From positions 1 to 64,000 of the forward strand of contig JAGAIW010000143.1 in NCBI GenBank assembly GCA_017626305.1: 64,000 nt of DNA, given 5' to 3'. This DNA is from Clostridia bacterium (GTDB lineage: Bacteria; Bacillota; Clostridia; Christensenellales; Borkfalkiaceae). Position 1 is the first letter of the stretch, and the number at the start of each line of letters is the position of its first letter. Below the pieces are notes generated by a model. It was given only the letters and a program-made list of their open reading frames with translations, searched no databases and was not told the origin of the DNA. This document shows positions 5,443 to 9,236 of the stretch, piece after piece. A program made the position numbers and the translations under genes.

Positions 5443-5554
5443 TGTTGTAGTTACGTTTTTCAACGTTTTGCTTATTGCCGCAGTTTTTGTTGCTACCGCA
5501 ATTCTTGTTGCCACAGTTTTTCATTTTGTTTTGTTTGTTTGCATTATTTTTCAT
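5426..5554 (-). CDS. Tiny Asn/Cys-rich protein
   Basis: A 42-residue protein starting at ATG 5554 with AAGGAG twelve bases upstream on the minus strand. Its middle is a near repeat of N-C-G-N-K/S: K-N-C-G-N-K-N-C-G-S-N-K-N-C-G-N. It is too short for most gene finders. The regular Cys-Gly-Asn pattern resembles small spore or coat-associated proteins, and a possible mother-cell promoter box lies upstream, but neither point proves a spore role. It overlaps the next gene by 17 bases. Confidence 0.65.
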   Translation of the reverse strand: MKNNANKQNKMKNCGNKNCGSNKNCGNKQNVEKRNYNNGENE

Positions 5555-5590
5555 AATATAAGCTCCTTGTGCAAGATTTTGCCTTGCCAT

Positions 5591-5599
5591 TACAGTATG
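5591..5599 (-). promoter_or_regulatory. Possible sigma-K-like -10 box upstream of the tiny gene pair
   Basis: On the minus strand 5599-5591 reads CATACTGTA, matching the sigma-K -10 pattern CATA-NNN-TA about 35 bases before the ribosome site. The -35 (AC) is not clear. It is a short match that chance could produce. Confidence 0.3.
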
Positions 5600-5665
5600 C
5601 ATCCTATTTTCCCGTTTATACTCGTTTATCGTTTGGAAAAATCCACCTTTTATGTGCGTAACCGC

Positions 5666-5694
5666 TTGCCAAAACGCTCGTTTTTTTGTACAAT
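5666..5694 (+). promoter_or_regulatory. Promoter for trmL
   Basis: TTGCCA (5666-5671), 17 bases, TACAAT (5689-5694), about 20 bases before the trmL start. Confidence 0.65.
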
Positions 5695-5715
5695 ATAGCT
5701 AAGGAGAATACATTT

Positions 5716-6219
5716 ATGTTGAATATCGTTTTAGTTGAACCGGAAATTCCGCAAAATGCGGGGAATATCGCGCGTACCTGCGCCGCTACGGGCACGAGAT
5801 TGCATTTTATCCGTCCGCTTGGCTTTGAAGTGAGCGATAAATATCTCAAACGCGCGGGCTTGGATTACTGGCATTTGGTGGATATATCCTATTACGACAG
5901 CTTTGACGAGCTGTATCAACAAAACGAAAACGCCACCTTTTATTTTTTCACCACTAAGGGCAGGAAACGGCACAGCGACGCAGCCTTTAAAGACGGCGAT
6001 TTTCTCGTGTTTGGCAAGGAAACCAAGGGTCTACCCGAAGAATTGCTGTTACAGCATCCCGACACCTGCTTGCGTATTCCTATGCGCGGCGAAGCCCGTT
6101 CGCTCAATTTAAGCAACTCGGTGGCGGTAGCGTTGTACGAAGCGTTGCGCCAAAACGATTATTTTTCTTTGTTGGAAGAAGGAGAACTGCACCACCACAG
6201 CTGGGACGAAGTGAAATAA
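5716..6219 (+). CDS. trmL: tRNA (cytidine/uridine-34 2'-O)-methyltransferase TrmL
   Basis: A 167-residue SPOUT methyltransferase that 2'-O-methylates the wobble base of certain leucine tRNAs using SAM. The trefoil-knot motifs are visible: V-E-P-E-I-P-Q-N-A-G-N-I-A-R-T-C at the start, F-G-K-E-T-K-G-L-P in the middle, and I-P-M-R-G-E-A-R-S-L-N-L-S-N-S-V-A at the C-terminus. I start it at ATG 5716, eleven bases after AAGGAG. It is the usual single-domain length for the family. A hairpin that can act as its terminator lies just before spoIIR. Confidence 0.95.
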   Translation: MLNIVLVEPEIPQNAGNIARTCAATGTRLHFIRPLGFEVSDKYLKRAGLDYWHLVDISYYDSFDELYQQNENATFYFFTTKGRKRHSDAAFKDGDFLVFGKETKGLPEELLLQHPDTCLRIPMRGEARSLNLSNSVAVALYEALRQNDYFSLLEEGELHHHSWDEVK

Positions 6220-6238
6220 ACGATTTTTGTTACGCTAC

Positions 6239-6267
6239 GTATAAAATGAATATATTTTGTCCATAAC
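6239..6267 (+). promoter_or_regulatory. Candidate sigma-F promoter of spoIIR
   Basis: GTATA (6239-6243), 15 bases, GTCCATAAC (6259-6267). The sigma-F pattern is GYATA, 15-16 bases, GGNNANAHT; seven of nine -10 positions agree. SpoIIR is a known sigma-F target, which supports the reading. Predicted transcription start is near 6273, inside the following hairpin. Confidence 0.5.
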
Positions 6268-6298
6268 TTCCGTAAACGGTTACGGGAGTTATTTTTTT
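6263..6298 (+). terminator. Terminator-like hairpin that contains the spoIIR ribosome site
   Basis: ATAACTTCCGTAA (6263-6275) pairs with TTACGGGAGTTAT (6280-6292) around ACGG, one wobble, followed by a run of seven Ts directly before the spoIIR ATG. The GGGAG ribosome site (6284-6288) is in the right arm. Read from trmL it looks like an intrinsic terminator. Confidence 0.75.
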
Positions 6299-6838
6299 AT
6301 GAAAAAGTATTGCATAATTTTTCTTTTGTCCATCATAATAATTTTAACGGGCTACGGCTTTTCGGGTACGGCTGTAACCCAAAGTAGTCCTACGTCGCAG
6401 GAATATTTACGCATGCATATTCGCGCGGATAGCAACGACGTTGCGGCGCAGGCGGTAAAATATCTCGTTCGCGACGGCGTAGTGGAGTATTTAACGCCGC
6501 TCGTAGCGGCGTATGCGGACAAGCAAAGCGCGTACGACGGCTTGAAAACGCACTTACAAGGAATAGAAAAGGCAGCAAACGAAGTGTTGCGCGAAAACGG
6601 CTTTTCCTACGGCTGCAAAGCGGAGCTGAAAAGAGAACGTTTTCCCGTACGCATTTACGGAGAATATACGTTGCCTGCGGGGGAATACGACGCGCTTATT
6701 TTATCCTTGGGCAAGGGCGTCGGGGATAACTGGTGGTGCGTGGTGTATCCGCCCCTTTGTTTTACCGCGCCGACGGGGAAAAACGTCGTGTATAAAAGTA
6801 AGATATGGGAGATTATACAAGCTTGGTCGGCAAAGTGA
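6299..6838 (+). CDS. spoIIR: Stage II sporulation protein R
   Basis: A 179-residue secreted signalling protein. In sporulating Firmicutes SpoIIR is made in the forespore and triggers SpoIIGA to process pro-sigma-E in the mother cell. The sequence has an N-terminal hydrophobic signal segment (residues 4-22), the family block L-R-M-H-I-R-A-D-S-N-D with V-R-D-G-V following, and the diagnostic W-W-C-V-V-Y-P-P-L-C-F near the C-terminus. I start it at ATG 6299, ten bases after GGGAG. sleB and ypeB follow on the same strand, forming a sporulation block. Confidence 0.95.
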   Translation: MKKYCIIFLLSIIIILTGYGFSGTAVTQSSPTSQEYLRMHIRADSNDVAAQAVKYLVRDGVVEYLTPLVAAYADKQSAYDGLKTHLQGIEKAANEVLRENGFSYGCKAELKRERFPVRIYGEYTLPAGEYDALILSLGKGVGDNWWCVVYPPLCFTAPTGKNVVYKSKIWEIIQAWSAK

Positions 6839-6862
6839 TTTTTACATACAGGAGGAAATAGT

Positions 6863-7612
6863 ATGAAAAAATCAATAAAAAGAAGATACCTGTTTGCGGC
6901 GGTTGCTTTGGCGATTGCCTTGCCCGTGGCGGTAGGGGTGAGCGCGACGGTTTCCGTTGCGCCTAATCCAACGTCGACGGCAACGACGGACGCCGTTTTC
7001 ACGGCGATATTGCGGCAGGGGTCTAAGGGTAGCGAAGTCAAGGAAATGCAACGCCGCTTAAAACAATGGGGATATTATAAAGGAAGCGTAGACGGCATTT
7101 TCGGTTCGGGAACGCGCGCCGCGGTAATTGCCTTCCAAAAGAAAAACGGTTTAACGGCTGACGGCGTGGTGGGGAAAGCTACGTATAAAGCGTTGGGCAT
7201 GACGGACGCGTATAACGCTTTGGATAACGCGGTCAGCAGCGGCAGCGTGGGTGGATTTTCCAGCTCGGACGTATATTTGCTGGCGCGGACAATCTATGCC
7301 GAAGGCAGGGGTGAGCCGTACGTGGGTCAGGTAGCAATCGGAGCGGTGGTGCTCAATCGCGTACGCCATTCGGCTTTCCCGAACACAATATCGGGGGTGG
7401 TGTATCAAAAACACGCGTTTACGGCGGTGTCGGACGGACAAATCAATTTAACGCCCAACGAAACGGCAATGCGCGCGGCGCGTGACGCCATCAACGGTTG
7501 GGACCCGTCGGGTGGGGCTATCTATTATTATAACCCTGCCGTCGCTACCAGCGCGTGGATATTCGATAGACAAACGGTCACCGTTATCGGGAAACACGTG
7601 TTTGCTATTTGA
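6863..7612 (+). CDS. sleB: Spore cortex-lytic enzyme SleB
   Basis: A 249-residue lytic transglycosylase that degrades cortex peptidoglycan during germination. Residues 1-28 are a signal peptide. About 50-112 form a peptidoglycan-binding domain (L-R-Q-G-S-K-G-S-E-V to G-K-A-T-Y-K-A-L). A Ser/Gly linker leads to the catalytic domain from about 137, with A-E-G-R-G-E-P carrying the expected catalytic Glu147, and A-I-G-A-V-V-L-N-R-V typical of the Hydrolase_2 family. AGGAGG precedes the ATG. ypeB follows after 16 bases, the classic pair in which YpeB stabilises SleB in the dormant spore. Confidence 0.95.
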   Translation: MKKSIKRRYLFAAVALAIALPVAVGVSATVSVAPNPTSTATTDAVFTAILRQGSKGSEVKEMQRRLKQWGYYKGSVDGIFGSGTRAAVIAFQKKNGLTADGVVGKATYKALGMTDAYNALDNAVSSGSVGGFSSSDVYLLARTIYAEGRGEPYVGQVAIGAVVLNRVRHSAFPNTISGVVYQKHAFTAVSDGQINLTPNETAMRAARDAINGWDPSGGAIYYYNPAVATSAWIFDRQTVTVIGKHVFAI

Positions 7613-7628
7613 TAAGGGGGAGTATAGT

Positions 7629-9236
7629 ATGGACGAAAAAAAGAAAGAGATATCCGTAAACGTGTCTTCGGGCGCGGAAAAGGTGGAAAGTATCACCCGT
7701 CAATCGGTGCAAAATGATGGTGACGAGCGGCTTGTGAAAACGGAAGTGGTCACCAAAAGTAAACGGCTTTCGGAAGAAGACGCGGCAAAAGCGCGCGTTG
7801 CGGCGGCGTTGAAAAAACAGGAAGAAAAAAAGAGAAAGCAGGAAGAAAAAGAACGCAAACGCCAAGAACGCGCACGCCAAAAAGCCAACCGTAAACGGGA
7901 GAAAGAACGGGGCTCGAATAAGGGCTACGGCGGTTGGATTGCCGCCGTCGTGTCGCTAGGCGTGGTTACCTTGGCGCTTGGCGCGACGGTCACCGTCGGT
8001 GCAATCGATATGGCGAAAACGAAAAACGGCGTAACGGCAGGCTACCGCGCTACGACGTACGAGCTTGTGGGAATTATGGAAAACGTAGACGACGACTTGG
8101 ATCGGGCAAGACTTTCCAACTCGCCCGTGCAACAAGGGCGTATTCTCACCGATTTGTTGGTACAAGCAAGACTTGCCGAGCTGGACTTGGAAAAAATGCC
8201 TATCGCCGCCGAAGCGGACGCACAGCTCACCACGTTTATCAATCGTGTAGGGAAGGAAAGCGAACGTATGCTTTCTAAGCTCCGCCGCGGGGAAAAACTC
8301 TCCGAAAAAGACGGCGAAACGCTGTCGGGTTTGTATAAGACGGGGCACGCTATGCGCGCCATGCTGGACGAATACGCCGCCAAAATGGAAGATAAAGATA
8401 TCGTGGGGTATATCAAGGACGGCACGGGCGCTTTGGCGGACGTGTTGAACGGGCTGGAAGAGCTCACTTTGACGGAAAACCGCGCGGCTATGCCCAAGCC
8501 CTTTGAAGATAAAATGGGCGGGGCAGGTATAGGACGAACACAAAACGACGGTGGTTTTTCGTATAAAATCGATACCGCACAAGCGGAAGAAAAGTGCTTG
8601 GAATATTTCGCCGATTATCCTATCGCGGAATATCAATGCGTGGGCGAAACGGTCGGTAAAGGCTATAAGGCGTATAACGTACAAGGCTACGACGATAAAG
8701 GGACGCTTTTATTTGCAGAAATTGACAGCGCAAGCGGCGCTTTGGTAAAATTTAATTATTACGAAGACTGCAAAGAAAATACCTTTGATTTACAAAACGC
8801 GCAAATGATTGCGGAAAATTTTTTGGAAAAGCTGGGGTATACCCAAATGCAAGCCATGCGCGTACGCGAAAACGGCACGGACGGAGATTTTACTTTCGTG
8901 TTCGTCGAAGATGGCGTGGCTTATTATCCTGACGCAATCCGTGTAAAGGTGTGCCGCAATCGCGGTATGGTGACGGGCTTGGACGCTACGGCGTTTATGC
9001 GTAATCATAGAGAGCGCAACGCTCCGCAAGTGCGCATTTCGTTGGATACCGCTATGGACAGCCTGCATAAGGACTTGCAGGTGAATAGCTGGCGGCTGGC
9101 GGCGGTGCATACCGCACGCGGCGAACGCACGGCTTACGAGTTTATTTGCTCGTTTGAAGAAGAAAATTACCTTGTGTACGTCGACGCCGTTACGGGTGAT
9201 GAAATCTCTATCGTCAACGTTAAAAACGTAAAATAA
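7629..9236 (+). CDS. ypeB: Germination protein YpeB with basic N-terminal extension
   Basis: A 535-residue membrane-anchored protein, start at ATG 7629 behind AAGGGGGAG. YpeB holds SleB inactive and stable until germination. Residues 103-125 are the membrane anchor; C-terminal segments carry PepSY-like repeats (for example A-E-E-K-C-L-E-Y-F and Q-N-A-Q-M-I-A-E-N-F-L-E-K-L). The first 100 residues are unusual: a charged, Lys/Arg/Glu-rich probable coiled coil absent from the roughly 450-residue Bacillus protein. Position after sleB supports identity. A terminator follows. Confidence 0.92.
   Translation: MDEKKKEISVNVSSGAEKVESITRQSVQNDGDERLVKTEVVTKSKRLSEEDAAKARVAAALKKQEEKKRKQEEKERKRQERARQKANRKREKERGSNKGYGGWIAAVVSLGVVTLALGATVTVGAIDMAKTKNGVTAGYRATTYELVGIMENVDDDLDRARLSNSPVQQGRILTDLLVQARLAELDLEKMPIAAEADAQLTTFINRVGKESERMLSKLRRGEKLSEKDGETLSGLYKTGHAMRAMLDEYAAKMEDKDIVGYIKDGTGALADVLNGLEELTLTENRAAMPKPFEDKMGGAGIGRTQNDGGFSYKIDTAQAEEKCLEYFADYPIAEYQCVGETVGKGYKAYNVQGYDDKGTLLFAEIDSASGALVKFNYYEDCKENTFDLQNAQMIAENFLEKLGYTQMQAMRVRENGTDGDFTFVFVEDGVAYYPDAIRVKVCRNRGMVTGLDATAFMRNHRERNAPQVRISLDTAMDSLHKDLQVNSWRLAAVHTARGERTAYEFICSFEEENYLVYVDAVTGDEISIVNVKNVK

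Follow-up and report, generated by a model that had tools for sequence, protein, structure and literature searches.

A hairpin that joins promoter, terminator and ribosome site is predicted to lock spoIIR against read-through transcription

The confinement of sporulation signals to one cell type is usually explained by where the responsible sigma factor is active. In the 64,000-nucleotide stretch of Clostridia bacterium DNA analysed here (the window), the forespore signal gene spoIIR follows trmL on the same strand after a gap of only 79 bases, which holds both a promoter motif and a hairpin. This arrangement raises the question of how a signal meant for the forespore is kept silent when transcription arrives from its neighbour. 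The genes concerned are:

5716-6219, + strand: trmL (NCBIfam TIGR00185, 208.2 bits, above cut-off; Pfam PF00588)
6299-6838, + strand: spoIIR (Pfam PF09551, 138.2 bits, above cut-off)
6863-7612, + strand: sleB (TIGR02869, 291.8 bits, above cut-off)
7629-9236, + strand: ypeB, next after sleB (Pfam PF14620 and PF20769, above cut-offs)

Against the NCBIfam models TIGR02837 and TIGR02889, spoIIR (138.9 bits) and ypeB (171.8 bits) score under the curated cut-offs of 151.9 and 303.55, respectively. The 3' end of trmL lies 43 nt from the hairpin, and this gene is the likely source of read-through into the spoIIR leader, which is composed as follows:

6239-6243, + strand: -35-like element GTATA, kept across spoIIR loci
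6259-6267, + strand: -10-like element GTCCATAAC, matrix score 27.5
6263-6275, + strand: left arm of the hairpin (fold and terminator scan)
6267-6271, + strand: anti-Shine-Dalgarno stretch CTTCC, within the left arm
6272-6277, + strand: predicted transcription start zone, best guess A6274, placed from the -10 position
6276-6279, + strand: loop ACGG (fold)
6280-6292, + strand: right arm of the hairpin, containing the ribosome site (fold and terminator scan)
6284-6288, + strand: Shine-Dalgarno sequence GGGAG of spoIIR, 10 nt before the ATG
6293-6298, + strand: T run, intrinsic-terminator tail, six T beyond the stem (terminator scan)
6299-6301, + strand: start codon ATG of spoIIR

The hairpin consists of 13 uninterrupted pairs, from A6263-U6292 to A6275-U6280 (one G-U, four G-C), and passes immediately into the six T (6292-6298 if the last stem base is counted), the sequence arrangement of an intrinsic terminator. 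The segment 6259-6298 folds at -15.3 kcal/mol, compared with -5.5 (sd 2.2) for dinucleotide shuffles, none of which was as low in 2000. Over 121 nt round the hairpin the fold is unremarkable (z -1.08; 22/200 shuffles equally good), and a terminator scan of 3 kb, itself crude, found no excess (3 found vs 5.4 expected).

The promoter motif, in which 15 nt separate GTATA from GTCCATAAC, is the top match in the 64-kb window (27.5; next 21.9) for a matrix that was trained on the very spoIIR loci it scores, source locus included. With this self-trained matrix, sigma-F-like promoters scoring above 8 precede 105 of the 115 distinct spoIIR loci that we assembled. One study (PMC3789822), in its covered part, points out a particular G in C. 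difficile sigma-F promoters; this G fills 99% of its matrix column here. The sigma-F assignment is a prediction from motif and conservation. The B. subtilis sigma-F consensus has a second G and a last T that are missing from the source promoter. The -10-like element and the left arm overlap, the final five bases of the element forming the foot of the arm. Since the last base of a -10 element lies at -7, transcription is predicted to begin at 6274.

The predicted accessibility of the ribosome site depends on where the RNA begins. Opening this site (core GGAG) costs 11.0 kcal/mol in read-through RNA vs 2.6 in RNA from the predicted start; resolved by 5' end, the cost is 12-13 kcal/mol for ends at or before 6263, 6.3 at 6268, 2.6 at 6272 and 3.5 at 6273-6277. 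A sequence-only reading of the window had described a 13-pair hairpin with a T run before the spoIIR ATG and the ribosome site inside, on which fold and terminator scan now agree. It had further placed a start near 6273, which fits the +1 of 6274 given by the general spacing rule, and had held that RNA begun within the left arm would free the ribosome site, an expectation matched by the computed costs of 2.6-3.5 vs 11-13 kcal/mol.

We consider it probable that the spoIIR leader acts as a read-through lock against trmL transcription. Polymerase coming through trmL would make the complete hairpin, and many of the resulting transcripts would end in the T run; in RNA that survives, the spoIIR ribosome site would be held in the 13-pair stem and be poorly translated. 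In the forespore, sigma-F polymerase would use a promoter whose -10 forms part of the left arm, so that its RNA, starting near 6274 and past the anti-Shine-Dalgarno stretch, would be unable to form the hairpin and would be neither terminated nor sealed. Production of SpoIIR would then be largely limited to cells with active sigma-F, and stray SpoIIR would be kept from triggering the processing of pro-sigma-E during growth or before division. Both termination and sealing may have a share in the effect.

Downstream, spoIIR, sleB and ypeB run head to tail (6299-9236) with 24 nt between spoIIR and sleB, and the germination enzymes may be made from the spoIIR transcript and be covered by its protection. 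A sleB match lies downstream of spoIIR in many relatives, though not all, and sleB is possibly co-transcribed with spoIIR and hence under the same guard.

We identified spoIIR in 50/61 searched genomes (source included), among them 33/37 of the genus, and called a leader locked when opening the ribosome site costs at least 9 kcal/mol in read-through RNA and the site's pairing partners lie upstream of the predicted start. This strict rule classes 29/33 spoIIR loci of the genus as locked; L008 shares the stem but, at 6.2, falls outside the rule, and L011, L029 and L032 are without the hairpin. The genus leaders share the consensus GTATAAA ... GTCAATAACTTCCGTG - loop - CACGGAGGTTATTTTTTT-ATG (27 of 33 loci aligned). 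Its exact core pattern occurs once each in 20/41 genus genomes, with no match for the reversed control; the source genome, having a different stem, is not among the 20. Of these matches, 17 lie directly upstream of spoIIR, and the other three are in genomes outside the spoIIR search.

Further loci came from the best 80 of 579 confirmed stretches from named assemblies, including Candidatus Borkfalkia, Gallimonas and Coproplasma, and from 20 fetched stretches. We take the loci of these three to belong to the Borkfalkiaceae/Christensenellales group. The resulting 130 loci were reduced to 129 with a start (L048 dropped; the non-ATG starts of L046, L049 and L104 set by hand), to 115 after removal of 14 repeats, to 105 with a promoter score above 8 and to 95 with a ribosome site by rule. 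The lock is present at 52 of these 95 scorable distinct loci, with four or more T after the ribosome site in 49/52 sealed vs 4/43 unsealed loci. Across the locked loci the arms are separated by 4-21 unpaired nt and the stems span 8-24 pairs. In 46/51 of them (the position and pairing counts do not include L129, which has another layout) opening the site costs less than 6 for all 5' ends from -10 position 15 onward or earlier, the opening point falling between positions 7 and 15; of the remaining five, one opens at position 20 and four nowhere within the tried range. For 5' ends at positions 12-18, the median opening cost in the 51 loci is 2.1-4.5, and a start seven bases past the -10 (position 16, by the general rule) therefore lies beyond the seal in most locked loci.

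Changes within the stems point in the same direction. From 57 segments with an opening cost of at least 6, of which 54 had a helix of 5 pairs, we obtained 34 distinct arm pairs in which 93.2% of the pairs are standard, compared with 85.3% (maximum 88.3%) when right arms were reshuffled. Double-change cells number 31 vs a mean of 6.9 and a maximum of 17 under redealt right arms, in a control that leaves relatedness in and with a register taken from each locus's own fold, which favours high pairing. Judged by these comparisons of sequence, the spoIIR stem is selected as a stem. The layout that the earlier reading expected in relatives thus recurs, at 29/33 loci of the genus and 52/95 overall with compensatory stem changes, and promoter, seal with T run, start-dependent opening and compensation agree by comparison with the double lock it had proposed, as a predicted device.

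Beyond these relatives, 7/17 order-level loci (L034-L050) could be scored and none is locked (highest 7.6 kcal/mol). Likewise, among the best-scoring 30 of 112 spoIIR matches in a class survey, 10 were without start or site by rule, and the 20 scored reach at most 8.2 kcal/mol, none of them, by eye, of the lock type. As class and order-level leaders all score 8.2 or less, the lock looks lineage-specific.

Variants of the layout occur as well. At L120 and L129 (spoIIR) and at L229 (spoVT), the left arm lies between -35 and -10, with the -10 between the arms and the ribosome site in the right arm, and RNA from the promoter itself would again lack the left arm. By eye, L127 (spoIIR) carries half a lock, a terminator hairpin that overlaps the -10 with the ribosome site after its T run.

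If the lock answers read-through, its distribution might follow the neighbouring gene. To assign upstream genes, we ran tblastn with 18 representatives drawn from the loci themselves; 17 have a Pfam match. Behind a same-strand gene within 120 nt, 43 loci are locked and 6 are not (3 unscored); behind one farther than 120 nt, 7 are locked and 9 are not (5 unscored); and behind a divergent gene, none is locked and 9 are not (2 unscored), one of the nine being L117, whose assigned gene is 1,526 nt away. The 31 loci without an assigned upstream gene include 2 that are locked. The neighbours of locked loci are trmL, mnmA, a YjbR-domain gene, an FtsX-like permease gene and a P-type ATPase gene, and L129 (locked, other layout) stands behind a GHMP-kinase gene, taken for ispE. 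Six loci, L008, L050, L082, L115, L127 and L130, have a close same-strand gene and are unlocked by the rule. At L011, an opposite-strand frame matching metallo-beta-lactamase reaches spoIIR, and there is neither hairpin nor T run; at L087, trmL points away and there is no lock.

Compared with all other arrangements, close same-strand neighbours are associated with the lock in Fisher's test (p = 4e-7 for all scored loci; 0.006 without trmL loci). On the protein tree the lock changes at least 10 times. Pairing loci on its starred branches gave 7 pairs for close same-strand vs other neighbours (1.4 in the expected direction, 0.1 opposite, 5.6 the same) and 4 pairs for same-strand vs divergent ones (1.6 expected, 0.0 opposite, 2.4 the same), and the lock differs in at most 2/7 and 2/4 of these contrasts, respectively. 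Because so few independent contrasts differ and many loci are close relatives, the association is not significant after ancestry correction; as far as these genomes indicate, the lock tends to track a same-strand neighbour.

A search of the source genome and of one relative (G036) with the promoter pattern returned eight sites. Besides spoIIR, one site per genome precedes a protein of 148 or 144 aa, which we identified as YwmB (SpoIIT) from a weak match to Pfam DUF1779 (24.0 and 25.7 bits; cut-off 25.6):

near 42813 of contig C108 in the source genome (G000), minus strand: spoIIT (ywmB) leader (L167, L172), same layout with a different stem

The source leader reads AATAATCCCTTTCGC - loop - GCGAAGGGGTTATT - T run - ATG. 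A ywmB match is present in 40/41 genus genomes, and 30 of those loci were examined along with the source locus, their starts being located by a rule that used modified matrix columns and accepted more ribosome-site words. At all 31 loci, RNA from the predicted start has an opening cost at least 4 kcal/mol lower than that of read-through RNA (medians 1.8 vs 12.3), and at 28/31 the read-through cost is at least 9 kcal/mol. In 25 distinct arm pairs, 90.2% of the pairs are standard vs 80.4% (maximum 84.1%) when redealt, with 29 double-change cells vs a maximum of 15; position 6 pairs in only 1/23. At 24/31 loci a HIT-family gene on the same strand is found 61-107 nt upstream. The spoIIT stems of L194, L195, L201 and L202 share CTTCCGTG with spoIIR stems, which makes a common origin of the two leaders possible; both kinds of stem must carry anti-Shine-Dalgarno letters.

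The two genes belong together functionally. The covered passages of two B. subtilis studies report forespore induction of spoIIR and spoIIT (ywmB) under sigma-F (PMC4703394, PMC13174948), and one of them describes low-level expression of spoIIT in growing cells as well as joint action of SpoIIT and SpoIIR so that SpoIIGA processes pro-sigma-E (PMC4703394). Growing B. subtilis cells that make SpoIIR, SpoIIGA and pro-sigma-E turn sigma-E on, and more so with SpoIIT, according to the same passages (PMC4703394); in E. coli, SpoIIR and SpoIIGA are stated to suffice (PMC13174948). Given this joint action, SpoIIR and SpoIIT are partners in one switch, with SpoIIR the essential one, and the source genome holds a spoIIGA relative (4.8e-18, below the family cut-off). 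The vegetative expression in B. subtilis means that forespore-only production is no strict rule for spoIIT there, and together with the sufficiency of SpoIIR and SpoIIGA in E. coli it leaves a need to silence spoIIT unestablished. In the source lineage, SpoIIT would be guarded in the same manner as its partner through a different stem. Tentatively, and with more doubt than confidence, we suggest that evolution may have put this three-in-one lock before both forespore signals that trigger sigma-E, perhaps independently, so that restriction to the forespore would not depend on the promoter alone and would be protected from read-through at the level of RNA, with the lock appearing when a same-strand gene moves close and decaying when the neighbour turns away.

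The principal alternative is plain compaction, in which the hairpin is simply the trmL terminator squeezed into a short gap, the overlap with promoter and ribosome site being a by-product and the sealing unselected. Such a reading accounts for the finding that the lock mostly occupies gaps of 54-116 nt behind a same-strand gene. It also accommodates leaders in which the two functions are apart: unlocked loci carry a terminator upstream of the -35 (L066, L104, L105, L116, L119, L123 and L130, found by a routine that misses hairpins, clear ones such as those of L002 and L009 too, and from which we draw no counts), and that of L127 overlaps the -10 and, by eye, leaves the ribosome site outside. 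However, in spoIIR and spoIIT alike the ribosome site sits at the centre of the stem, the spoIIR lock stays whether the neighbour is trmL, mnmA, yjbR, the FtsX-like permease or the P-type ATPase gene, and the spoIIT lock is kept at L194, where the HIT-family gene is 595 nt away.

The rarity of the combination also argues against compaction. Among 358 gene starts in 447 kb of the source genome and G036, which is no random genome sample as the stretches were picked around known hits, the median site-opening cost is 2.1 kcal/mol, and for sealing the two spoIIR starts come 3rd and 4th (11.4 and 11.1). A cost of at least 9 kcal/mol together with five T before the start was found at 5/358 starts, three of them spoIIR or spoIIT: spoIIR twice, spoIIT and a spoVT-like gene of G036, and a membrane protein gene behind yajC in the source genome. 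The source spoIIT is missing from the five, probably because the gene caller, a crude one, retained a reading frame on the antisense strand at that place. On this evidence we regard compaction by itself as rather unlikely, and the read-through lock as the better account.

It is much less likely still that the RNA starts upstream of the hairpin, for example at the sigma-A-like TTGTTA-18-TATATT (6227-6256; 9 of 12 matches in our scan), so that the hairpin would serve as a general brake or attenuator. Against such a start, the 3-kb region holds 3 sigma-A-like sites vs 3.5 by chance, and the second hexamer is absent from most aligned relatives, which keep GTATA and the -10 core. In addition, no room for an antiterminator is visible in the gap, and no RNA family (riboswitch or known RNA element) was matched when 5500-7000 was searched against Rfam with E up to 1. 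That the inverted repeat, a near-perfect dyad across the start zone, is instead a DNA operator for a promoter-bound regulator is hardly credible, given that arm distance (4-21 nt) and stem length (8-24 pairs) vary, that G-U pairs are common in the spoIIR stems and that a T run accompanies the hairpin.

A read-through lock of this kind would follow a principle that is already known, established for gene e of phage T4 and proposed for sigG of B. subtilis. For T4 gene e, the covered passages describe a long early RNA that forms a helix over the ribosome site, a late-promoter RNA that lacks the 5' part of this helix and is translated well, and related phages that keep the late promoter in the region encoding the helix 5' strand (PMC3014915). 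As in gene e (also soc, 49 and I-TevI), a sealing helix over the ribosome site is predicted for spoIIR only in RNA started upstream. The T4 case concerns the timing of phage lysis through a phage late sigma factor, and those passages mention no terminator, whereas the spoIIR hairpin ends in a T run and lies at a predicted forespore promoter of a bacterial developmental gene.

For B. subtilis sigG, a large hairpin, which RNA from the gene's own promoter is unable to form, was proposed to keep spoIIG read-through RNA from being translated, as set out in the covered part of one paper (PMC5942855). The likeness to spoIIR is close, in that read-through from an upstream operon into a forespore gene is blocked by a hairpin; the sigG hairpin has 20+ pairs, the covered passages mention no terminator, and the proposal there was not made for spoIIR or spoIIT. 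Sun 1991 and Masuda 1988 are reportedly the sources of the sigG proposal. In the fold-back inhibition of IS10/Tn10, a hairpin covers the transposase ribosome site in transcripts that begin at outside promoters, but not in those from the element's own promoter; that system belongs to a mobile element and is not known to overlap a developmental promoter. An ordinary intrinsic terminator shares with the spoIIR hairpin a stem and an immediate T run at a gene end, but does not include the ribosome site of the downstream gene and part of its promoter.

What is new here is the combination of seal, terminator and promoter in one stem of ~30 bases, its occurrence at both sigma-E signals and its conservation. 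Among the matches listed in our literature search, which mostly did not extend to subscription journals, we found no report of a lock at spoIIR or spoIIT. If the proposal holds, leakage of transcription from a neighbour would be harmful enough for selection to act against it, and where an RNA begins could by itself decide whether it is translated. The signature of the lock could be searched for, pointing to genes whose stray expression is costly, and the lock itself could serve as a compact genetic part for expression without leakage.

Other sporulation genes of the genus rarely show this combination. Of 30 sigG-like leaders (matches below the TIGR02850 cut-off), 24 fall below 9 kcal/mol and 6 seal at about 9 or more, none of the sealed ones, by eye, with a T run before the start. 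Of 30 spoVT-like leaders (below the TIGR02851 cut-off), 25 fall below 9 kcal/mol and 5 reach 9 or more, among which L229 resembles a lock, with its left arm between -35 and -10. The spore protease gene gpr was dropped as a further source of sigma-F/G promoters, as TIGR01441 matched in 0/41 genus genomes (the B. subtilis control was positive); the genus thus has spoIIR and is matched by the spoVT and sigG models, yet gives no GPR match.

Two further observations concern genes outside this set. At L168 and L169, a sigma-F-like promoter precedes orthologous 214-aa proteins that match no Pfam model; the reading frame upstream is divergent and conserved, and no hairpin is visible. We regard the gene as a candidate forespore gene. 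The 127-aa membrane protein mentioned above (G000:C108:90837, minus strand, in L178) begins 51 nt behind yajC, both genes being named by eye, and its leader shows no clear sigma-F-like promoter. Its ribosome site lies in a hairpin that costs 11.1 kcal/mol to open, with a T run right before the ATG, and is possibly another read-through lock, built on a different promoter.
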